From a virus, in the IMG/VR virus record IMGVR_UViG_3300047408_000169, positions 1 through 41,147 of that record: DNA of 41,147 bases; one strand, 5' to 3'. Both the position numbers and the translations under genes were made by a program. Below are positions 3,103 through 38,699 of this stretch, in pieces (within the stretch, counting starts at the first letter, position 1; every line of letters starts with the position of its first letter). The notes under the pieces are model-generated. The model had not been told where the DNA came from, did no database searches, and saw only the letters and a list, made by a program, of their open reading frames with translations.

Positions 3103-4925
3103 GCGGACATCCACATTATCCGTGGAGCGAAGGCGACGCGCTCTTCGCGGACGAACTGAACGCGGCTATCGCCAATGCTGGCGGGGGAGGCGGGCCGTTT
3201 CTGCCGCTCACGGGCGGGACCGTTGGTCCGTTAACGGTCCAGAACAGTTTGAGCGTTGGTGGTTCCGCGGCGCCGTATGCGTCTTTGCTCATGCAATCCA
3301 CGCCGGGGACAGACCGCGTGACGAGTTACTACAGCGGCGGCGGTATAAGATGGCAAGTTGGTGCGCGCGGTGAAGCTGAGACCGGATCAAACCTTGGTTC
3401 GCCTTATCAACTCGGGGCGTTTTCCGACAGCGGCGCTTTCAAGGGTTTCCTGTTGCTTGGGCAGCGCGGCAGCGGCCCAACTGGTGAGGGGAACCCTTAC
3501 TTCAGCTATATGTCGGCGTTTCAGATGAGCGCACCAAAGGCTCCGGGTCCGGGTGGCACCTCTTTTATTGATATCGACGGCACGCAGGCTGATGTCCAAC
3601 CGACAACGACGCTGGGGAACAATCCGATCTCCGTTGTATCGGGATCGCCGGTCGTTACTGTTACGTGGCCGGGATCGGGAGCGTCTGGCGGCGCGATCTT
3701 CGGGGGGTTCCAGGTTTGGGTTTTGCTCGCCGGGGCCACCGCTGTCGGTGGCATAACACTCACAGGCTGGTTTAAGGCGACATGCATCGACAACGATCAC
3801 TTCACGGTGACGTGGACCGCCAACGCCACGAGCACGGCTGTTGGCGGCGGCGCGGGTGTGACCGTCCGGCCGTCATTCGCGACATCGGGAAGCAAGTATT
3901 TACACATAGCCAGATCGGGAGCCGGAGACTTTCCGGTGCAATACAATCGCCTGTATGTGGCGGTACCTGAGTTCCTTAGATCGCCCGCGCAAGGTTTCGG
4001 CCCACAGTTTCAGCAAGAATGGCGGATGGCCTTCGGACCAAAAGACGCCGCGCCAGCCGGGACGCACGGCTGGGGGATGACGGGAACGGAACTGGATCTG
4101 GTCAACCGTGGTACTGATCCCGGCTACTCGCCAAATCTGTTTGGGGCGCCAAACCCGACGATTGGTTTCTGGGTCGGTGCGTATAACGATGTTCCTTCTT
4201 TTGTTCCCGATGGCGGCGTGGCGACCAACTGGAACACGATCTTCGCGGTGTTCAGCCAAGGTGGCGCGGTTGGAAACTATGTCAGTTTCTCATCGCAACA
4301 GAACGCCTTGGTGGGAGCGGCGCGCGACCCCACGGGGCACGGTGGTGTCGGCGTTGTGCTGTATGGCGCTTATAGCGGCTACCCCGCCAACGGGGTGGCG
4401 ACCGTGAGCGGTAGTAGTGTGGTTACCGTGGCGCCTTATCAGACAACGGCGCAGGTAAATGGCAATCCAGTATACTTTCCCCAGGTTGTTACCGTTAACG
4501 GTGTAACTTTCGGTGGTGCCGCGTATGTCATGTCCAATGTTACCGCGACCACGTTTCAGATAACCGGAACGGGTAGCGCATCGGCGACCGGAGCGGGAGG
4601 CGCGGCACAGGTTTTTTACTATCAGAACCTCGTGCCTTACGCGCCGATGGAGTTTCGCGGCTCGTTCAAGCACGGGATATCCACGACGGAGTTCCGCTCC
4701 GAGGACGGTTCGATCATCCGCACTCAGCCGGGCAACGGCATCGCCTGGGACGATGGCACGGCGGCGGCGTCGATCACGGGGACTGAGATCAGTGCCGGGA
4801 ATGTCTCCATCGTGCTGACCAGGGCGGGCACCGGTACGGTCCGGTTGGTTGGTTTGCCGACGAGCGCGGCCGGGCTGACCACGGGCGATGTGTGGCGTAA
4901 CGGCGCCGTGTTGAACATCGTATGA
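3099..4925 (+). CDS. Tail fibre/spike protein A
   Basis: This encodes 608 residues, starting in an ATGA overlap with the preceding gene. The N-terminus has a short anchor ('YPWSEGDALFADELNAAI'), a Gly linker and the 'FLPLTGGTVGPLTV' repeat start common in fibres. The long centre is Gly/Thr/Ser/Val-rich with beta-structure periodicity and no catalytic motif I can name. The last 25 residues (GLPTS, then GLTTGDVWRNG, then VLNIV) are almost the same as the C-terminus of the fibre at 5893-6894. It is expected to be a trimeric receptor-binding fibre. Enzymatic depolymerase activity cannot be excluded. Confidence 0.75.
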   Translation: MSGHPHYPWSEGDALFADELNAAIANAGGGGGPFLPLTGGTVGPLTVQNSLSVGGSAAPYASLLMQSTPGTDRVTSYYSGGGIRWQVGARGEAETGSNLGSPYQLGAFSDSGAFKGFLLLGQRGSGPTGEGNPYFSYMSAFQMSAPKAPGPGGTSFIDIDGTQADVQPTTTLGNNPISVVSGSPVVTVTWPGSGASGGAIFGGFQVWVLLAGATAVGGITLTGWFKATCIDNDHFTVTWTANATSTAVGGGAGVTVRPSFATSGSKYLHIARSGAGDFPVQYNRLYVAVPEFLRSPAQGFGPQFQQEWRMAFGPKDAAPAGTHGWGMTGTELDLVNRGTDPGYSPNLFGAPNPTIGFWVGAYNDVPSFVPDGGVATNWNTIFAVFSQGGAVGNYVSFSSQQNALVGAARDPTGHGGVGVVLYGAYSGYPANGVATVSGSSVVTVAPYQTTAQVNGNPVYFPQVVTVNGVTFGGAAYVMSNVTATTFQITGTGSASATGAGGAAQVFYYQNLVPYAPMEFRGSFKHGISTTEFRSEDGSIIRTQPGNGIAWDDGTAAASITGTEISAGNVSIVLTRAGTGTVRLVGLPTSAAGLTTGDVWRNGAVLNIV

Positions 4926-5900: not shown

Positions 5901-6894
5901 ATACACGCGCACCCCGAATCTCGGCCTCTATAAACCGCTCGAGGGCGGCGACATCGATTTGTGGGGCGGCCACCTGAACGCTTCTTTCGACATCATCGAC
6001 GCGACCGTGGGAGGGACTTTTCTGCCACTCTCGGGTGGCGTGATAACGCCGGGACCGCTGGCGGTGCATGGTAAACTACTGGTTGGCGCCACCGGCTGGC
6101 TTGAAGCCATCATTGGCGCCACCGAGATCATCGGCCAGACCGTTTCGCTCTCTCAAATAGCTGGTTCGGGCGGCGTGTTCGGCACCCGTACCAGCGATGG
6201 CGGGGCGCCCGGAAGCTCGGGGGCATTCGCGGTCGGTGCTTTCGCGATCAATGACAATACAACAGCCGTTCAGACCGCATACGGCCATTACACAGAAGCC
6301 AGACGCTACGCGGGCGCGGGTACGACGCAGGGCATGGAAATATGCCCGGTTAACCAGGGCGACCTGAAGCAGAACCAGCCCTACTACATGGGGCAGACCG
6401 GCTCGACGTTGGGTTTGTGGCTCAATTCAGGACGGGATGACGCGACCACGAACAATGATAACTCGTTGGCCCTCGGTATCATCGCCGGAAACGCGTTGTG
6501 GGATCGTGGGATCATGTTCGGCCACGACTCCGTGCGCTCCGGGGTCGCGATCGGGATGCCGCCGCAATACCAGTTCGTCTGGTATCTCAACGATGCCGGT
6601 GCCAGCCATGGCGTTGGTGTGCCAGGGGCGGTGATCAGCGCGAACGTAAGCAGCGTTGCCGGTCTGGCGCACCCGCCGACGTTGTTCTTTGGTAATGGGG
6701 AGTTGCTGTTTGATCCTGGCAATAACGTCATCGCGGCGCAGTTCGCTGTCGGATTGAATACTTTTCAGGCAACACAAATAAATGGCGCGCTGACGGCAAC
6801 CGGACGGCTCAACGTAGCTGGCCTTCCGACGAGTCCCTCGGGTCTGACGACGGGCGACGTGTGGCGCAACGGCACTGTGTTGAACATCGTATGA
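5893..6894 (+). CDS. Tail fibre protein B
   Basis: This encodes 333 residues. ATG 5893 is chosen because GGAGG lies just upstream and because 'YTRTPNLGLYKPLEGGD' is the usual N-terminus of fibre anchor modules. Residues about 6-41 form an anchor ('LGLYKPLEGGDIDLWGGHLN') shared with the collar protein at 7267. Then comes 'FLPLSGGVITPGPLAV' as in fibre A, a Gly-rich beta region, and the shared C-terminal tag ending in VLNIV. It is expected to be a receptor-binding fibre. The protein is about half the length of fibre A. Confidence 0.75.
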   Translation: MSEYTRTPNLGLYKPLEGGDIDLWGGHLNASFDIIDATVGGTFLPLSGGVITPGPLAVHGKLLVGATGWLEAIIGATEIIGQTVSLSQIAGSGGVFGTRTSDGGAPGSSGAFAVGAFAINDNTTAVQTAYGHYTEARRYAGAGTTQGMEICPVNQGDLKQNQPYYMGQTGSTLGLWLNSGRDDATTNNDNSLALGIIAGNALWDRGIMFGHDSVRSGVAIGMPPQYQFVWYLNDAGASHGVGVPGAVISANVSSVAGLAHPPTLFFGNGELLFDPGNNVIAAQFAVGLNTFQATQINGALTATGRLNVAGLPTSPSGLTTGDVWRNGTVLNIV

Positions 6895-29668: not shown

Positions 29669-29961
29669 TCACCCCCGCCCTCGAGATCCTCGAGGCGGCC
29701 ATGGACCTGCTGGTGCCGCTGGGTCTCGCGGCCAATCTCGCCTGCGTGTGGATCTGGTGGCGGCGCCACCAGCGCATGCTGACGCTGCCGCATCTGTTGG
29801 AGCGGCTTTGTGTCGATGCCGCCATGCGCCGCCGGCTGCCGGTGTTCTGGGCTTATGAGCAGGCGTTCGGCAAACGCATCCGCGTCGACGTGGTGCTCGA
29901 GGACGAGGGTGAGGTGGAGGCGACCGCCGACAACCCACCTTGGTATCTCAACCCTGACTGA
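29665..29961 (+). CDS. Single-span membrane protein, early operon
   Basis: This encodes 98 residues from ATG 29665 (ATGA overlap). One hydrophobic span 'MDLLVPLGLAANLACVWIWW' (about residues 12-31) is followed by a basic stop-transfer (RRHQR) and a soluble C-terminal region with 'MLTLPHLLERLCVDAAMRRRLPVFW' and an acidic strand-rich end. The soluble part should face the cytoplasm by the positive-inside rule. The role is unknown. The gene lies just before the primase-helicase. Confidence 0.6.
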   Translation: MITPALEILEAAMDLLVPLGLAANLACVWIWWRRHQRMLTLPHLLERLCVDAAMRRRLPVFWAYEQAFGKRIRVDVVLEDEGEVEATADNPPWYLNPD

Positions 29962-29997
29962 CGCATGCTCGCCGGCCCATCAGCCGGGAGCGAAACA

Positions 29998-32433
29998 GTG
30001 TCACAACCCATGCAGCCCGATCCCCCGCGCCCTCCCACCGACCGGAGGGCCAGGGGTATCGGGCTGCATGGCGTGCCGGCGTTCGCGGCGATGCTGGCGC
30101 GGGTTCGCTGGTGCGTGTGGTCGTGGCGCCTCGTCAGCCGGAAAGACGGCACGACGTCATGGAGCAAGCACCCGCATGTTCCCGGTTCGCCGGCCTCGAT
30201 CCGCTCCAACAGCCTGCGCGGCGCCACGACCTACGACCGAGCCGAGCGGGCGGTGCTGGAGGGGGAGGCCGACGGCGTGGGTTGGCTGCTGCTGGGCGAT
30301 CTGGAGCGGGTCTGGCTCGACGGCGACAAATGCCGCGACCCCGCCACCGGCGATCTGGCGCCGTGGGCGTGGGATATCATCGACCGCTGCCCCGGCGCGT
30401 ATGTCGAGGTGACCCCCTCGGGGACCGGTGTTCGCATCATGGGGAAGGCAAACCTCGACGTGCCGATGCAGGCGCGGGTGTCGATGGCCGGCGAGCCGGG
30501 CGCGCATGAGCGCGCCGCGCTCGAGGTGTTTTTCGCGGGTTCGCGGTTCGTGACCGTCACCGGGTGGACCGGTGGCGCGGCCGGTGATGGCGACGGCGAC
30601 GGCGACATCGGCATGGAGGCGCTGCGGCTGTGGGAGCTGGGCGAGGCGCGGCGCCTCGCGCGGGCCCGGGTGAGGGATGACGGCATCGCGCTTCGGAGCG
30701 CGCGCGTGGGCCCCGGACGGACCCGCACGGCGCCGCTCGGCGACATCGTGGCCGTGCTCGGCGTGATCGCGAACGATTGCGAGCACTGGGACGAATGGAC
30801 GCGCATCGGCATGGCCGCGCACGCGGCCTCGGGCGGCGATGAGGCCGCCTATGAGGCGTGGGTGGGCTGGTCGGCGAAGTGCGAGGCCAAGCACGACGAG
30901 GAGGCCTGCCGGGAGCGGTGGGACCACTGGGCGCGTTCACCGGCCGACCGACTGGGGTTCGGCGCACTGGCGTGGCTGGCGCGGGAAGTGGAACCGGACT
31001 GGCGGCCGCCGTCGCGGGCGAACGTGGATGGGGATTTCGACGTGGTCGAGGAGGCGTCGGGCGGGGCGGGAAGCGCGCCCTCGGGAAAACCCGAGGCCGC
31101 CGGGGGTGATGACGCGTTCAACGCCCTGGCGGGATCGCTCATCTATGTAAGGGAGGTGCATCGCTGGCGCGACACGGTGACCGGGCTGCTGATGGATGAG
31201 CCACGACTCAAAGCGCACGCCGCGCGCCTTGGGGTTGGAGGCGCCTGGGCGCAGGCCGGCAAGAGCCTCGCGGCACGTCTGGCGCGGCCAGGAAGCGCCA
31301 TGCGGTGGGCGGTCGGGTTGACGATGCGGCCGGGCGGTCCCGAGCTGCTCGAGGAAGACGGACGGATGGCGGCCAATATCTGGCGGCCCTCGACGGTGGC
31401 GCCATTGGTGGGGGCCACCGACGACGACGTGGCGCCGTGGCTCGAGCACGCTCGCCTGCTGATCCCCGACGAAACCGACCGGAACCGGGTGCTGGATCGC
31501 ATGGCGTGGATACTTCAGAACCCGGGCCGCAAAATCAATTCAGCCATGGTGCTGGTCGGCCCACAAGGTGCCGGCAAGGACACCTTCCTGCTGCCGTTCC
31601 TGCTGGCGATCGGCGCGCACAATGTCGGCCATGTGAGCGGCAGCGCGGTCGGTGGCGCGTTCAACGGCTACCTGCGGCACCAGATCCTGATGATCAACGA
31701 AATGCCGCCGGTGCACAAACGTGACAGCTACGAGACGATCAAGGGGTGGATCACGACGCCGCCCGATCAGATCCCGATCAATCAGAAAAAGATCGAGGTC
31801 TTCATGATCCCGAACGTGATCAATGTGTGGATCACGAGCAACCATCTGGGTGCCATCGCGCTGGCCGAGGACGATCGGCGTGGTGACGTGGTGACAACGG
31901 CGGCCGCCGCGCCGGGCGGTAGCCTCGAGGGCGTGCTCTACTGGACCCGGCTGCACCAATGGATCGGGAAAGAAGGCGCCGCCGCCGTCGCCGGGTGGCT
32001 GCTGAAGCGGGACGCGTCGGCATTCCATCCAGGGGCCGCGCCGCCGGTGACCGTGGCGAAACAAACGATGATCCGTGAAGGCGCGCATCCGGCCGTGGGG
32101 TGGGTGATGTCGCTGTGGGACGAAGAGCGGCCACTGGTGGATCGGAACTACGTGACCGTGGGTGAGATCCTGGCTCAAGGGCAAGACGGCCGCTGGGGCG
32201 CCGGAAACGCCATCGCCAGAGGGCTGACCTGGGGGCATGTCGCCCAGGCGCTGCGAATGCTGGGGTGGGCTCGCCTGCCGCAACAGATCACCGATGGAGA
32301 GACGCGCCCGCGTGTCTGGACGCGGCCGGGGATGGTCGATCTGGCATCTCAGTTGTCCGTGCCGAAGCTACAGGAGTGGCTGCTGCGGGATCGGTCGAAA
32401 TCGTCGCGGGACGCGCACAGTGGCGATTTCTGA
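29998..32433 (+). CDS. Primase-polymerase/D5-like helicase fusion
   Basis: This encodes 811 residues from GTG 29998, preferred because GGGAG lies seven bases upstream; ATG 29965 has no ribosome site. The N-terminal part carries the primpol-like pattern 'VGWLLLGDLERVWLDGDKCRD' (Asp108, Asp110), 'GDLAPWAWDIIDRCPGAYVE', 'TPSGTGVRI' and 'RFVTVTG'. The middle has an alpha-helical linker ('DEWTRIGMAAHAA'), and the C-terminal ATPase shows Walker A 'GPQGAGKDT' (521-529), Walker B 'ILMINEM' (563-569) and a sensor-like 'VWITSNH'. It matches primase-helicases with DUF5906/NrS-1-like helicase domains and would start and drive replication with the phage polymerase. Confidence 0.9.
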   Translation: MSQPMQPDPPRPPTDRRARGIGLHGVPAFAAMLARVRWCVWSWRLVSRKDGTTSWSKHPHVPGSPASIRSNSLRGATTYDRAERAVLEGEADGVGWLLLGDLERVWLDGDKCRDPATGDLAPWAWDIIDRCPGAYVEVTPSGTGVRIMGKANLDVPMQARVSMAGEPGAHERAALEVFFAGSRFVTVTGWTGGAAGDGDGDGDIGMEALRLWELGEARRLARARVRDDGIALRSARVGPGRTRTAPLGDIVAVLGVIANDCEHWDEWTRIGMAAHAASGGDEAAYEAWVGWSAKCEAKHDEEACRERWDHWARSPADRLGFGALAWLAREVEPDWRPPSRANVDGDFDVVEEASGGAGSAPSGKPEAAGGDDAFNALAGSLIYVREVHRWRDTVTGLLMDEPRLKAHAARLGVGGAWAQAGKSLAARLARPGSAMRWAVGLTMRPGGPELLEEDGRMAANIWRPSTVAPLVGATDDDVAPWLEHARLLIPDETDRNRVLDRMAWILQNPGRKINSAMVLVGPQGAGKDTFLLPFLLAIGAHNVGHVSGSAVGGAFNGYLRHQILMINEMPPVHKRDSYETIKGWITTPPDQIPINQKKIEVFMIPNVINVWITSNHLGAIALAEDDRRGDVVTTAAAAPGGSLEGVLYWTRLHQWIGKEGAAAVAGWLLKRDASAFHPGAAPPVTVAKQTMIREGAHPAVGWVMSLWDEERPLVDRNYVTVGEILAQGQDGRWGAGNAIARGLTWGHVAQALRMLGWARLPQQITDGETRPRVWTRPGMVDLASQLSVPKLQEWLLRDRSKSSRDAHSGDF
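30008..30071 (+). promoter_or_regulatory. 64-base near-palindrome just inside the primase gene
   Basis: Bases 30008-30021 (CCATGCAGCCCGAT) and 30058-30071 are perfectly complementary. The inner arms 30022-30035 and 30044-30057 pair at 11 of 14 positions around an eight-base loop (30036-30043). The arms begin ten bases after the proposed GTG start. As RNA it would be a very stable hairpin that could limit translation. As DNA it could extrude or act in initiation of replication. Confidence 0.75.
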
Positions 32434-32703
32434 TGACTGTGTAAATTGTGCAAGGCGTGCGAGTGCGAGCAGCGCAATGCACGCTTTGCACTGTTCGCAA
32501 AAAGCGCACAGTGGTTGAACACTTGCAAAACGGACGAGTGTTCATGCTTTGCAATGATGACATCATCATCTTTTCCCTATTTGAACACTGAACAGTGATT
32601 TTACTAATTAGTAGAGAATATAGAATATAGGAAGAGAGGGAGGTATAATTCGCATTCAGGAGAAAAAGCGCGGATGAGTGTTCAGTGTTCGGAGGCAGCG
32701 GCG
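32434..32703. promoter_or_regulatory. AT-rich repeat-dense region before the resolvase gene
   Basis: This 270-base gap is the AT-richest part of the window. It has two inverted TGCAA-N3-GTGC sites (32449-32460 on +, 32479-32490 on -); TGAACACT/AGTGTTCA (32516-32523, 32537-32544); GAACACTGAACA at 32583-32594 with its exact complement at 32679-32690; GCGCACAGTGG twice (32413 and 32504); ATGATG-A-CATCAT (32554-32566); and ACTAATTAGT. TATAAT at 32644-32649 is a possible -10. The layout suggests a control region or replication origin. Confidence 0.6.
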
Positions 32704-33138
32704 ATGGTAACGGTTCTGGGCATTGATCCAGGCTTGAGTGGGGCGGTGGCGCTGCTGCGTGTGGATGCCGGAACAGGCACGGCCCGGCTGTCGTGGCTGT
32801 GGGATGTCACGGCCGAGGTGGCGCAGGCGGCGAGAGACGCGGATCTCGTCGTGATGGAGACGCAGCGCGCCAGTCCGCAGATGGGAGTGGCCTCGGCCTT
32901 CAGCCTGGGTAGGAGCGTCGGGGTAGTGATCGGCGCGCTGGAGGCGACCGGGCAATCGGCGCATCGCGTCGAGCCGGCGGTCTGGCGCGGTGCGTTCGGG
33001 CTGACGAGCAAGGAGGACGGTGTCGACATGGCGCGCCGGGTGATCGGTGAGCCGACGCGGGCGTTGCGGCATGACGAGGCCGACGCCATCCTGCTGGCGT
33101 GGTGGGGCTGGCGAGCGGTGTTGAGCAAGGCCGGATGA
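32704..33138 (+). CDS. RuvC-like Holliday junction resolvase
   Basis: This encodes 144 residues from ATG 32704, where GGAGG (32691-32695) lies eight bases upstream; ATG 32674 with AGGAG is an alternative adding ten residues. 'VLGIDPGLSGAVALL' gives the first catalytic Asp8. 'LVVMETQRASPQMGVASAFSLGRSVGVVIGAL' gives Glu52 and the alpha-helix typical of RuvC. 'RHDEADAILLAWW' gives the final acidic residues (Asp124, Asp127). Such enzymes cut branched replication products so that the terminase can package. Here it lies directly before the small terminase. Confidence 0.88.
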   Translation: MVTVLGIDPGLSGAVALLRVDAGTGTARLSWLWDVTAEVAQAARDADLVVMETQRASPQMGVASAFSLGRSVGVVIGALEATGQSAHRVEPAVWRGAFGLTSKEDGVDMARRVIGEPTRALRHDEADAILLAWWGWRAVLSKAG

Positions 33139-34261: not shown

Positions 34262-35722
34262 ATGGCCCAATTCATGGGCGAAACCACCGCGACCCCCGAC
34301 TGGGCTCAATCCATCGCGTCGGCCGAGAACCCGTTCGCGGTCGCGATCACCCGATATGCCCGCGCTCCCGTCGCGTTCGTGCGCGAGGTGCTCCACGCCG
34401 AGCCCGATCCGTGGCAACTGAGCGCGCTGCGCGCCATCGCCAAAGGCCACACCCGCGTGGCCATTCGCTCGGGACACGGTGTCGGTAAGACCGCTTTCGC
34501 CGCGTGGTTGGTCACATGGTTCGCCAACACCCGCGCGCCATTCAAGATCGCCATCACCGCCCCCACGGCGCCGCAGTTGTTCGACGCGTTATGGCCGGAG
34601 ATCGGCAAGTGGTTCGCCCGGCTTCCCAGCGGCTGGCGGGATCTCTGGGACATGACGTCCGATCACATCACCCTCAAAGCCGATAAGGAATGTTTCATAA
34701 CGGCAAGGACATCAAGATCCGATCGGCCCGAGGCGATGGCCGGCCTGCACTCGGATCATCTCCTGCTCGTGGCCGACGAGGCCTCCGGTGTTGATGAAGC
34801 GGTCTTCGAGGCCGCCGGCGGCTCGATGTCGTCATTCGGCGCCATCACGCTCCTCATTGGAAATCCCACGCGGAGCACTGGCTTCTTTTGGGCAGCCCAC
34901 ATGCTGGAACGGGATCGTTGGTTCACCATGCGGGTCTCCAGCCTCGACTCCCGTCGTGTCACGCCCACTTTCGTTGCTGAGATAGAACAGCGATACGGCC
35001 TCGACAGCAACGCCTACCGCGTGCGGGTGCTGGGCGAGTTCCCCTCGGCCGACGACAACACCCTGATACCAGCATCCCTCATCGACGCCGCCATGATCCG
35101 CGATGTGCCGCTCGATCCCAGCCAGCCGATCTACTGGGGCGTCGACGTGGCCCGCTTCGGGGCGGATGCCTCGGTGCTGATCAAGCGCCAGGGCAACGTC
35201 GTCCCCGAGATGCCGCGCCGCTGGCGCCAGTTCGACACGATGCAACTCTCCGGCGCGCTCAAATCCGAGTATGATCTCGCCACCCCCAAACCGCATCTGA
35301 TCGTGGTCGACGTGATCGGCATCGGCGCCGGCGTGGTCGATCGCCTCGCGGAACAGAACCTCCCTGTCCTCGGCCTCAACGTCGCCGAGGCCGCCTCGAC
35401 CACCGGCCGCTTCGGGCGGATGCGCGACGAGCTGTGGGTCCGCTGTAAGGAGTGGCTCGAGACGCGCGCGGTCAGGCTCCCGCGCGATGACGCTCTGCGC
35501 GATGACCTCGCGTCCCCGCGCTACCAGTTCCTTTCCGACGGCCGCATGCAGGTCGAAAGTAAGAACCTGATGCGCGCGCGCGGCCGCCCGTCTCCGGACT
35601 CGGCTGACGCGCTCATCCACACGTTCGCCCAGGCCGGCCTGGGGATCGGCACCGGGATGACCGCCGGCCTGTTCGATCGCGAGCCGGCCCACATGGCGTT
35701 TGGCCCGGGAGAGTTTGTATGA
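34262..35722 (+). CDS. terL: Terminase large subunit
   Basis: This encodes 486 residues. The ATPase domain has Walker A 'GHGVGKT' (71-77) and Walker B 'LLLVADEAS' with Asp172-Glu173, and 'IGNPTRSTGFFW' as coupling motif. The nuclease domain starts at 'YWGVDVARFGADASVL' (Asp295), with 'HLIVVDVIGIGAGVVDRL' as second acidic site and 'SPDSADALIHTF' near the end for the third. It cuts concatemers and drives DNA into the prohead through the portal. It overlaps the following gene (ATGA). ATG 34262 has only a weak ribosome site. Confidence 0.95.
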   Translation: MAQFMGETTATPDWAQSIASAENPFAVAITRYARAPVAFVREVLHAEPDPWQLSALRAIAKGHTRVAIRSGHGVGKTAFAAWLVTWFANTRAPFKIAITAPTAPQLFDALWPEIGKWFARLPSGWRDLWDMTSDHITLKADKECFITARTSRSDRPEAMAGLHSDHLLLVADEASGVDEAVFEAAGGSMSSFGAITLLIGNPTRSTGFFWAAHMLERDRWFTMRVSSLDSRRVTPTFVAEIEQRYGLDSNAYRVRVLGEFPSADDNTLIPASLIDAAMIRDVPLDPSQPIYWGVDVARFGADASVLIKRQGNVVPEMPRRWRQFDTMQLSGALKSEYDLATPKPHLIVVDVIGIGAGVVDRLAEQNLPVLGLNVAEAASTTGRFGRMRDELWVRCKEWLETRAVRLPRDDALRDDLASPRYQFLSDGRMQVESKNLMRARGRPSPDSADALIHTFAQAGLGIGTGMTAGLFDREPAHMAFGPGEFV

Positions 35723-35961
35723 GCGGTCATCTTTTGGATGTGGTGCTGGCCGCCGAGCAGCGGCAGCGGGCGGCCATGGACGCGCATCTGGCCCTGGCCG
35801 CCGACGCGCGCGATATCTGGCACGCGAGTAGTCCGTTCTGGCCGCTGATGCTGACGGTGCGGGGGTATGTCGCCTGGGAAGATCTTGAGCGGCGAGAGGG
35901 GGTCGCGCGGCGACGCGAGGCGCGCGCGGCGCGGCGCGCGGCGCGGAGTGGCCGGTCGTGA
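35719..35961 (+). CDS. Small hypothetical protein between terminase and portal
   Basis: This encodes 80 residues starting in ATGA and ending in GTGA overlaps. 'LLDVVLAAEQRQRAAMDAHLALAADARDIW' and 'WPLMLTVRGYVAWEDLERREGVARRREARAARRAARSG' give two helical segments with a strongly basic C-terminus. No family is recognised. The basic tail and location suggest contact with DNA or with the portal-terminase complex, which is inference. Confidence 0.65.
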   Translation: MSGHLLDVVLAAEQRQRAAMDAHLALAADARDIWHASSPFWPLMLTVRGYVAWEDLERREGVARRREARAARRAARSGRS

Positions 35962-38699
35962 GCCAGACCCTCGCCCCTCCCCAGCCCCAGGCGGCCCAAC
36001 CCATGCCCGGCGGCCTGCTCACCCCCCGGCCCAACCCGCCCGTTGATCCCAACAGCCCGCCACCCTTGCCGCCGATCCAGGGTCTGATCCCGCACGGCAT
36101 GCGCCCGACCGGGCTGAGCCTCGGCGCCGAGCAGATGCTGGCGTTTCTGTTGCCGCCGACCCGGGCTGACGGCGACATCCCGCCCGATACGGACCAGCAG
36201 TTACCCGCCTCGCTGCGGCCCTACGCGGCCGGCCTGCGGCCCGCCACCCGCCCCGAGGGCGTCCCTTGGCAGCAGGAGATCGTGTTCGAGCGGCTCGGCA
36301 AAACCGACGCCCAGATCACCGCCGTCGCGCGGCATTACTTTCAGCATGCCCAGAACTACGACGCCGCGTTGTCGCGCGAGCGCATCACCGCCAGCCAGTA
36401 TTACGCCGGCAGATCCGACGAGCCGCTGCCCGACGGCCGTTCCAAGTTGGTCATGACGGTGGTGCGCGACACCATCCGCCAGACGCTCCCCTCGCTCCTC
36501 CGTATCTTCACCGCCGTCGAAGACCCGGTGGAGTTCAGCCCCGTCGCCTCCGAGATCGCCGGCGACGATCAACTCGCGACCGCCCTCTCCCGGCAGGCGA
36601 CGGACTACTGCCGATGGGCCCTGTTCTCGGCCAACAAGGGCTGGGGCGTGCTGCACGACGCCCTGCTCGACGCCCTGACCCGCAAGGCCGGCTGGGTGCG
36701 CTGGCACTGGGGCGCTCGCCGCCACGTCCGCACCGAGGTGTGCGAGGGGCTGATCCTGCCGCAGCTTCAGATGCTGCTGGCGGAACCCGGCATCGAGGCC
36801 TCCCGCATCGTGCGCCGGTCGATGTTGCCCGACGAGATCCAGGCGCTCCAGAAGACGCCCGAGGGGGCGATGTTCCTCTCCCAGGCGCCGCCGGAGCTAT
36901 GGAGCGCCACCATCACCCGCTCGGCCGGCCAGCCCTGGCCGATCGTCAATCATGTTCCGGCCGAGTGCGTCTGGATCACCCCCGAGGCGGCCTCTATCGA
37001 GGGCGCGAAAGGCGTCTTTCATATTCGTGACTGCACGGTATCGGAACTGATCGAGAGCGGCCTGCCGGAGGACAAGGTGCTTGCCAATCTCACGTCGGGT
37101 TTCGCCAGCCGCCAGCGACAGGAGATCATCAGCCGATCACGCGCGCAGGGCCAGAACATCAGCAACGCCAACCCGCCCGGCGATCGGTCGATGGCGATGG
37201 TGCGCTACTGCGAGGGCTGGGTGCGCTGCGACACCGACGGCGATCACCGGGCCGAGCTGATTCATGTGCACATGCTGGGCAACGCCCAGCGCCTGATCCA
37301 GTGGGAGCGCACCGACGAGACACCTTTGGCCTGCTTCACCCCCTACCGTGAGCCGGGGCGGGTGATCGGCTCCAGTCAGGCCGACATGGTGATGGACCTG
37401 CAGCGCATAGAGTCCAGGGTGATGCGCTCGGTGCTGGATAGCCTGTCCCAGTCGATGTTCCCGCGCACCGTTGTCGTTCAGGGGCAGGCCAACATGGCCG
37501 ACGCGCGGCAGACCAATATCGGCAGTATCATTCGCGTGGCGCAACAAGGCGCCGTTACGGAACTGGCGAAGCCGTTCATGGGTAAAGAGGCCCTGCCGGT
37601 GATGGATGTGCTTGAGGCGATCCGCGAGAGCCGCACTGGCATAACGCGTGCCTCCTCCGGCCTGACCGTTGACGAATTGCAATCAACCGCGCCGATCGCG
37701 GTCAGCCAACAGTCGAGCGCGGCGCAGGATCGTCTCGACATGGTCGCGCGCACCCTGGCCGAAACCGGCCTCGCCCCGCTCTATTCCGGCCTGCTCAAAA
37801 TGTTGGCGCGGCAACAGGACCGGCCCAACGTCATCCGCGTCCGCAACCAGTGGATCGCCATCGATCCGAGGGCCCTGGCGACGATGTGGGAAACCTCGGT
37901 GAACGTCGGCGGCAAGGGCATGCCGCAGGAGCGTCTCGCGATGCTCGCCCAGATCGCCGGTAAGCAGGAGCAGATCATGCAGCTCGGCGGGCTGGACAAC
38001 CCGCTTGCCGGTATCCCCGAGTATCGCAACACGCTCGCCAGGATGTTGGAAACCGTCAATATCTCGGATGTGTCCCGCTACTTCCGCGCCCTGCCGCCAG
38101 GGTTCCAGCCGCCGCCGCCGGCGCCGCCGTCGTCCGACCCGTCGCTCATCCTGGCCCAGGTGCAGGAACGCAAGACCGCCGCCGATGTCGAGAACGATCG
38201 CGCCTCGGAACAGACCAAACGCGCGCAGCTCCTGCTCGAGGACGATCGCGAGCGCGACAAGGCGGCGCTCGATGCCTGGGCGAAGACCTGGGTGGCCGCC
38301 GCGCAGTTCGGCACGCCGGCCCCCAGCCTGGACGCGTTCAAGACGGCCATGCAGTCTCGCGCGCCGGCTGTCGGGCTGCTGACCGATCTCCCGTCTCCCA
38401 GCTCGCCACAGCCGCCGGCGGTTGGCGCGGCACCACCCAACCAACCGTCACCCCCAAGGCCGCCCGGTCCTCCCGGCCCGGGCGGCCCGCCGCCGCGTCC
38501 GATGGCGCCGCCACCACCACCTTCACCCATGGCGGGCCCCGCGCGGCCGTCGGCCGATCCAGCCACCGCCATGGCGGTCAGGAGCGCGCTCGCCGGCGGC
38601 ACCATGCCGACCGCCTATGGGCAGCTCGCGCAGCGCGCCGCGCTGTCACCTCTGCTTGGCCCCGGCGGGCCCGCTCTGCCGCGCCCCGGGCCGGGCTAG
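35958..38699 (+). CDS. Portal protein (P22-type, large)
   Basis: This encodes 913 residues from GTG 35958 (GTGA overlap). After a Pro-rich start, the portal core begins near residue 100 ('LGKTDAQITAVARHYFQHAQNYDAALSRERITASQYYAGR') and continues through 'RSKLVMTVVRDTIRQTLPSLLRIF', 'FHIRDCTVSELIESGLPED' and 'GSSQADMVMDLQRIESRVMRSVLDSL', the latter matching the stem-wing pattern of P22-like portals. From about residue 720 a helical barrel-like Glu/Arg-rich region leads to a long Pro-rich tail. The size exceeds P22 portal (~725) because of both Pro-rich ends. It forms the DNA channel and binds the terminase and adaptor. Confidence 0.88.
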   Translation: MSQTLAPPQPQAAQPMPGGLLTPRPNPPVDPNSPPPLPPIQGLIPHGMRPTGLSLGAEQMLAFLLPPTRADGDIPPDTDQQLPASLRPYAAGLRPATRPEGVPWQQEIVFERLGKTDAQITAVARHYFQHAQNYDAALSRERITASQYYAGRSDEPLPDGRSKLVMTVVRDTIRQTLPSLLRIFTAVEDPVEFSPVASEIAGDDQLATALSRQATDYCRWALFSANKGWGVLHDALLDALTRKAGWVRWHWGARRHVRTEVCEGLILPQLQMLLAEPGIEASRIVRRSMLPDEIQALQKTPEGAMFLSQAPPELWSATITRSAGQPWPIVNHVPAECVWITPEAASIEGAKGVFHIRDCTVSELIESGLPEDKVLANLTSGFASRQRQEIISRSRAQGQNISNANPPGDRSMAMVRYCEGWVRCDTDGDHRAELIHVHMLGNAQRLIQWERTDETPLACFTPYREPGRVIGSSQADMVMDLQRIESRVMRSVLDSLSQSMFPRTVVVQGQANMADARQTNIGSIIRVAQQGAVTELAKPFMGKEALPVMDVLEAIRESRTGITRASSGLTVDELQSTAPIAVSQQSSAAQDRLDMVARTLAETGLAPLYSGLLKMLARQQDRPNVIRVRNQWIAIDPRALATMWETSVNVGGKGMPQERLAMLAQIAGKQEQIMQLGGLDNPLAGIPEYRNTLARMLETVNISDVSRYFRALPPGFQPPPPAPPSSDPSLILAQVQERKTAADVENDRASEQTKRAQLLLEDDRERDKAALDAWAKTWVAAAQFGTPAPSLDAFKTAMQSRAPAVGLLTDLPSPSSPQPPAVGAAPPNQPSPPRPPGPPGPGGPPPRPMAPPPPPSPMAGPARPSADPATAMAVRSALAGGTMPTAYGQLAQRAALSPLLGPGGPALPRPGPG

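Follow-up and report, generated by a model that had tools for sequence, protein, structure and literature searches.

A hairpin of exceptional strength lies at the start of the primase-helicase gene of an uncultured tailed phage, and the analyses favour its being a lineage-specific quasi-palindrome within coding DNA, its interpretation as a replication origin or an attenuator being unlikely. The window analysed here is the whole 41,147 nt (positions 1 to 41,147) of a single metagenomic virus record, IMGVR_UViG_3300047408_000169, and belongs to a tailed phage with large terminase, SU10-type portal and RuvC-like resolvase genes.

29998-32433, + strand: primase-helicase gene, GTG start, 811 aa, with a PrimPol domain, PriCT-2 and a DUF5906 ATPase (Pfam/PHROG matches)
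32674-33138: RuvC-like resolvase gene
34262-35722: large terminase gene
35958-38699: SU10-type portal gene

The N-terminal half of the primase is a sequence relative of the NrS-1 enzyme, its profile matching NrS-1 primase chains (e.g. PDB 6a9w, E 4e-12). With this PrimPol match and a PriCT-2 domain (E 3e-12), the gene belongs to the NrS-1-like primase-polymerases. The AlphaFold model of this half was poor (mean pLDDT 51.5; residues 1-38 below 50) and therefore says little on disorder of the N-terminal extension.

The hairpin, which starts 11 nt inside the gene, has the following parts.

30008-30021, + strand: outer 5' arm, 14 perfect pairs with 30058-30071
30022-30035, + strand: inner 5' arm, 11 of 14 positions paired; codons of the PDPPRPP segment
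30036-30043, + strand: loop of eight bases, CACCGACC
30044-30071, + strand: 3' arm, encoding RRARGIGLHG, in which RG..L is invariant in 11 homologues

The two arms (30008-30035 and 30044-30071, 28 nt each) are paired at 25 of 28 positions and thus 89% complementary, confirming the near-palindrome of 14 perfect outer and 11 of 14 inner pairs around an eight-base loop that the first-pass annotation had described. Folded as RNA, the 64-nt hairpin is very stable (-53.1 kcal/mol, z -9.5, with no shuffle equally good), and the hairpin also folds strongly as DNA on both strands (z about -6). An Rfam search of the window returned no match. The hairpin is the longest and best-scoring inverted repeat of the window (20.5, against 18.5 for the next and 6.5 for the median tile), and the best scores in 60 first-order Markov simulations of the 41-kb window did not exceed 17.0. 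When the protein was held fixed and codons were redrawn from the phage's own usage, the score was reached in 2 of 3000 draws. The description of the pairing as far beyond chance for coding DNA needs context, since other strong coding hairpins occur in the window and its relatives: one at 826-895 has 29-nt arms and a score of 18.5 (z -4.7), with no counterpart of similar score in the relatives scanned, and two more with scores above 19 were found in about 820 kb of relatives.

The nearest relative, contig L003, whose primase protein is 93% identical over the first 350 residues (the PrimPol half), retains the inner 18 pairs of the hairpin (17 unchanged and one altered from C-G to U-G), while three of the outer seven are broken. 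Its 64-nt segment beats shuffles (z -4.2), and its fold in a longer context is unremarkable (z -1.3). Synonymous conservation is not significantly in excess, change in the 18 hairpin codons not differing from that in the following 326 (2/18 vs 57/279, p = 0.27). The PrimPol domain occurs in many further IMG/VR contigs, and in the more distant PrimPol relatives the hairpin is absent, the best repeat score in the first 110 nt being 4-9.5 vs 20.5. Terminase-sharing relatives start a few residues before the RG..L segment (e.g. MTKNEDRTRGLNLRDIPG, homologous to the window's TDRRARGIGLHGVPA), so that the residues encoded by the 3' arm are a conserved segment and the 5' arm falls within a short, proline-rich extension of the N-terminus, missing from these relatives; the outgroups have no alignable N-terminal extension. 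The earlier suggestion that the encoded residues are free to vary thus applies to the codons of the 5' arm but not to the 3' arm, which encodes the R19-G20-x-x-L23 invariant in the 11 homologues. Degenerate DNA patterns for the 3' arm recovered the L003 contig only, a DNA-level search of phage records gave no match, and the bacterial genomes searched held three distant relatives and no close one. Judged from these sequences, the full hairpin is limited to the window phage, with a weaker form in its closest known relative, L003. Relatives sharing the protein without the pairing, named in the first-pass annotation as evidence against a functional structure, accordingly exist among the distant homologues, but the nearest one keeps the inner stem, a segment that is too similar to that of the window to reveal selection.

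In the N-terminal extension, the window and L003 differ by one replacement cluster.

30004-30015, + strand: CAACCCATGCAG, which takes the place of 21 different bases in L003 and ends in 8 bases that are the reverse complement of 30064-30071

Between near-identical flanks, these 12 nt are unrelated to the 21 nt of L003 (CCCGCCGCATCCGTCCCGTTG, 3866-3886), and 8 of the 12 pair with the 3' arm, exactly in register with the inner stem that both phages have. Template switching can generate stems, make imperfect ones perfect and alter coding DNA (PMC8794818; PMC8604942), and the trace that it leaves is a replacement cluster lengthening a stem already present. The hairpin resembles the quasi-palindromes of those studies in being an imperfect inverted repeat with an in-register clustered replacement on one arm, located in coding DNA, and its arms are too similar for chance; in the published cases the direction of change was fixed by dense phylogenies, whereas here the comparison is with one sister sequence. 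The C-rich codons of the PDPPRPP extension face the G-rich codons of RRARGIGLHG downstream, yielding a quasi-palindrome. On the evidence of the replacement cluster, the perfect outer arm most likely arose in this lineage through one template-switch mutation: replication would have used 8 bases of the 3' arm as template and placed their reverse complement in the N-terminal stretch, which varies freely, the direction not being proven.

With somewhat more confidence than doubt, we therefore regard the hairpin as a lineage-specific coding quasi-palindrome and not a conserved control element, with an outer arm probably made by template switching, a possible incidental effect on translation, and replication probably starting 3' of the gene. 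The in-register cluster of 12 vs 21 nt, the 18 inner pairs retained next to the broken outer ones in L003, the low scores of distant relatives and the missing extension of the terminase-sharing ones, the ordinary rate of synonymous change, the second strong coding hairpin (826-895) in the same genome and the published precedent all support this reading. Against it, with one close relative only, the common ancestor may already have had the perfect arm, which then decayed in L003; an inverted match of at least 8 bases somewhere within 200 nt is found for about 8.5% of random 12-mers, and by our estimate it is the exact register alone (roughly 0.27 to the 7th-8th power) that makes the 8-base match striking. 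Moreover, the sole change in the inner stem retains a wobble pair, and because gene starts normally have little structure, so extreme a hairpin there could be a sign of selection.

The main rival to the mutational origin is a selected translational element. The GTG at 29998 is the better start codon, because this GTG and its GGGAG ribosome site are conserved in L003, where the ATG at 29965 is out of frame; the earlier placement of the hairpin behind a GTG start with a ribosome site is thereby borne out. The ribosome site itself lies in a smaller structure.

29967-29991, + strand: small hairpin GCUCgCCGGC/GCCGGGAGC, pairing GGGAG (29986-29990); found by folding and present in L003 too

The GGGAG is mostly paired in both phages (mean unpaired 0.11 for the window, 0.16 for L003). 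Over its first 100 nt the primase gene folds at -64.8 kcal/mol vs -13 to -47 for 34 other candidate gene starts, making this by far the most structured of the 35 checked, and the stop codon of the upstream gene (29959-29961) is only 36 nt ahead of the GTG. Structure in mRNA at a gene start can limit translation, and the hairpin is of this kind in placing a stable stem within the first 75 nt of coding sequence; it differs in that regulation, a ligand and conservation were none of them seen. If the hairpin has any consequence, it would be a lower initiation of primase translation, since the stem of -53 kcal/mol starts only 11 nt into the coding sequence and the ribosome site ahead of it is already paired within the small hairpin, which ribosomes finishing the upstream gene 36 nt earlier could open. 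A lowering of primase translation is thus plausible, with at most a brake-like effect. Selected control, by which the hairpin (+11 to +74) and the small hairpin would limit the synthesis of primase and couple it to upstream-gene translation, is a possibility to be taken seriously but held only tentatively: the extreme folding energy, the paired ribosome site, the retention of both the small hairpin and the inner stem in L003 and the nearby upstream stop argue for it, but the pairing shows no sign of selection, the hairpin is absent in more distant relatives, the ribosome site and start codon are not themselves covered by it, and the primase start of relative L089 is equally strongly structured (-66.9) without a palindrome. 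The compensatory pairing changes expected of a translational operator were likewise not found, the comparison with L003 giving one wobble-keeping change and none that is compensatory. Of the translational switch proposed at first, the effect on translation is physically plausible, but neither conservation nor covariation speaks for a regulated switch. It is very unlikely that the primase represses its own synthesis by binding the hairpin, whether in the primase mRNA or in the displaced strand of the DNA, an arrangement that would amount to a lineage-specific autoregulatory operator arising in one mutational step. A role in terminating or attenuating transcription at the gene start is also very unlikely: the G+C-rich stem is close to the gene start and, in several relatives, a perfect terminator-like stem and T tail precede the primase start by about 50 nt, but here the stem has no T-run behind it (the sequence is CGTGCCGGCG), is far longer than those of usual terminators, and was not listed by a terminator scan of the window, so that the attenuator suggested earlier is unsupported. 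Pure chance or an assembly artefact is also improbable. The source is a single metagenomic record and proline-rich codons facing RG-rich ones favour pairing, as the few successful synonymous draws indicate, but simulated genomes never reached the score, the inner stem occurs independently in another contig (L003), and the reading frame runs unbroken through the hairpin.

In the relatives L090, L097, L100, L102 and L106, the perfect terminator-like stem GGGCGACGG-GAGA-CCGTCGCCC followed by TTTT lies about 35-75 nt upstream of the primase start, L106 carrying the variant GGCGCCGG; this stem was not found in the window or in L003.

That the hairpin might be a single-strand initiation site or an origin structure recognised by the primase, as the first-pass annotation also proposed, is contradicted by where such structures lie in this enzyme class. 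The related PrimPol-helicase replicon pRN1 requires as its origin a stem-loop, about 100 nt long and located 3' of the replication gene, that is poorly conserved in sequence with its structure kept; a similar stem-loop is reported for phage BIP-1 (PMC4234260). The window hairpin resembles them as a large stem-loop beside an archaeo-eukaryotic-type primase fused to a helicase; unlike the pRN1 origin, which follows the stop codon and retains its fold as the sequence changes, it is at the 5' end, 11 nt inside the coding sequence, and its structure is not kept in relatives. The NrS-1 primase uses a specific 8-nt template site in mid-genome (PMC7102993), unlike a hairpin at the primase gene start. 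The region 3' of the gene in the window fits a pRN1-type origin better.

32434-32673, no strand assigned: AT-rich intergenic stretch, the better origin candidate, positioned as in pRN1 and BIP-1
32436-32512, no strand assigned: stem-loop of 28 pairs with a branched fold (DNA fold z -4.6 over 32434-32520)

Four of the window's five copies of TGAACACT are clustered here within 170 bp (32516-32684, two per strand), the last of them (32677-32684) just inside the resolvase gene. GC content is 47% over the 320 bases after the primase stop vs about 66% for the window, and cumulative GC skew peaks at 33-34 kb. The same 8-mer recurs 3' of the primase gene in L040 and L101; the hairpin at 30008-30071 does not contain it and has no k-mer of 7 or more in common with the downstream region. 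A parallel between these repeats and phage P4 alpha/crr was rejected, a paper search giving no support. In relatives whose primase carries another helicase half (about 20% identity to that of the window), the primase stop is followed immediately by a palindrome of 41-52 pairs in 11 of 11 cases.

L036, 4995-5140: palindrome just after the primase stop
L039, 5394-5520: palindrome just after the primase stop
L034, 5077-5200: palindrome just after the primase stop
L044, L047, L051, L061, L038, L090, L092 and L094: palindromes just after the primase stop

The outer stem sequences of these palindromes can differ wholly between conserved flanks (e.g. L090, L036 and L047). Relatives with the window-type helicase (L003, L089, L088, L040 and L101) mostly have smaller stems and repeats there, L088 departing from this in pair count (52 pairs, loosely folded). 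By analogy with pRN1 and BIP-1, replication probably starts in this structured, repeat-bearing region 3' of the gene. An origin role for the hairpin is accordingly very improbable: its strong fold on both DNA strands and the 8-nt template site and origin stem-loops used by relatives of the enzyme (PMC7102993; PMC4234260) would suit one, but relatives with the same PrimPol domain lack it, the known origin stem-loop of the class and the palindromes of all 11 relatives with the other helicase half are 3' of the gene, and the window has there a stem and clustered 8-mers of its own, a region with which the hairpin shares no 7-mer.

Several features of the primase genes and of the sequence just 3' of them were observed in addition. 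The giant palindromes are near-perfect, and their stems look built of repeats of roughly 10 bp. They accompany one type of helicase half (11/11) and are mostly missing where the other is present. Around residue 350, a shared PrimPol half (40-50% identity) is joined to two unrelated helicase halves (about 20% identity), suggesting from sequence comparison a module exchange between primase halves among related phages; D5_N was detected in the L036 protein and not in those of the window or L040. In L003, the C-terminal 120 residues of the primase are only 50% identical to those of the window, vs 93% for the N-terminal half, and unrelated repeats (GCTGTCCA, 6302-6500) occupy the same place 3' of the gene, so the primase C-terminus and the downstream repeats seem to diverge together.

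In summary, the hairpin shows cleanly that one lineage can acquire a strong structure at a gene start that is no conserved control element, and it warns against taking a palindrome beside a primase start for an origin. For these uncultured phages, the comparison puts the likely origin 3' of the primase gene and shows that the kind of origin structure goes with the helicase half of the enzyme, making origin recognition testable.
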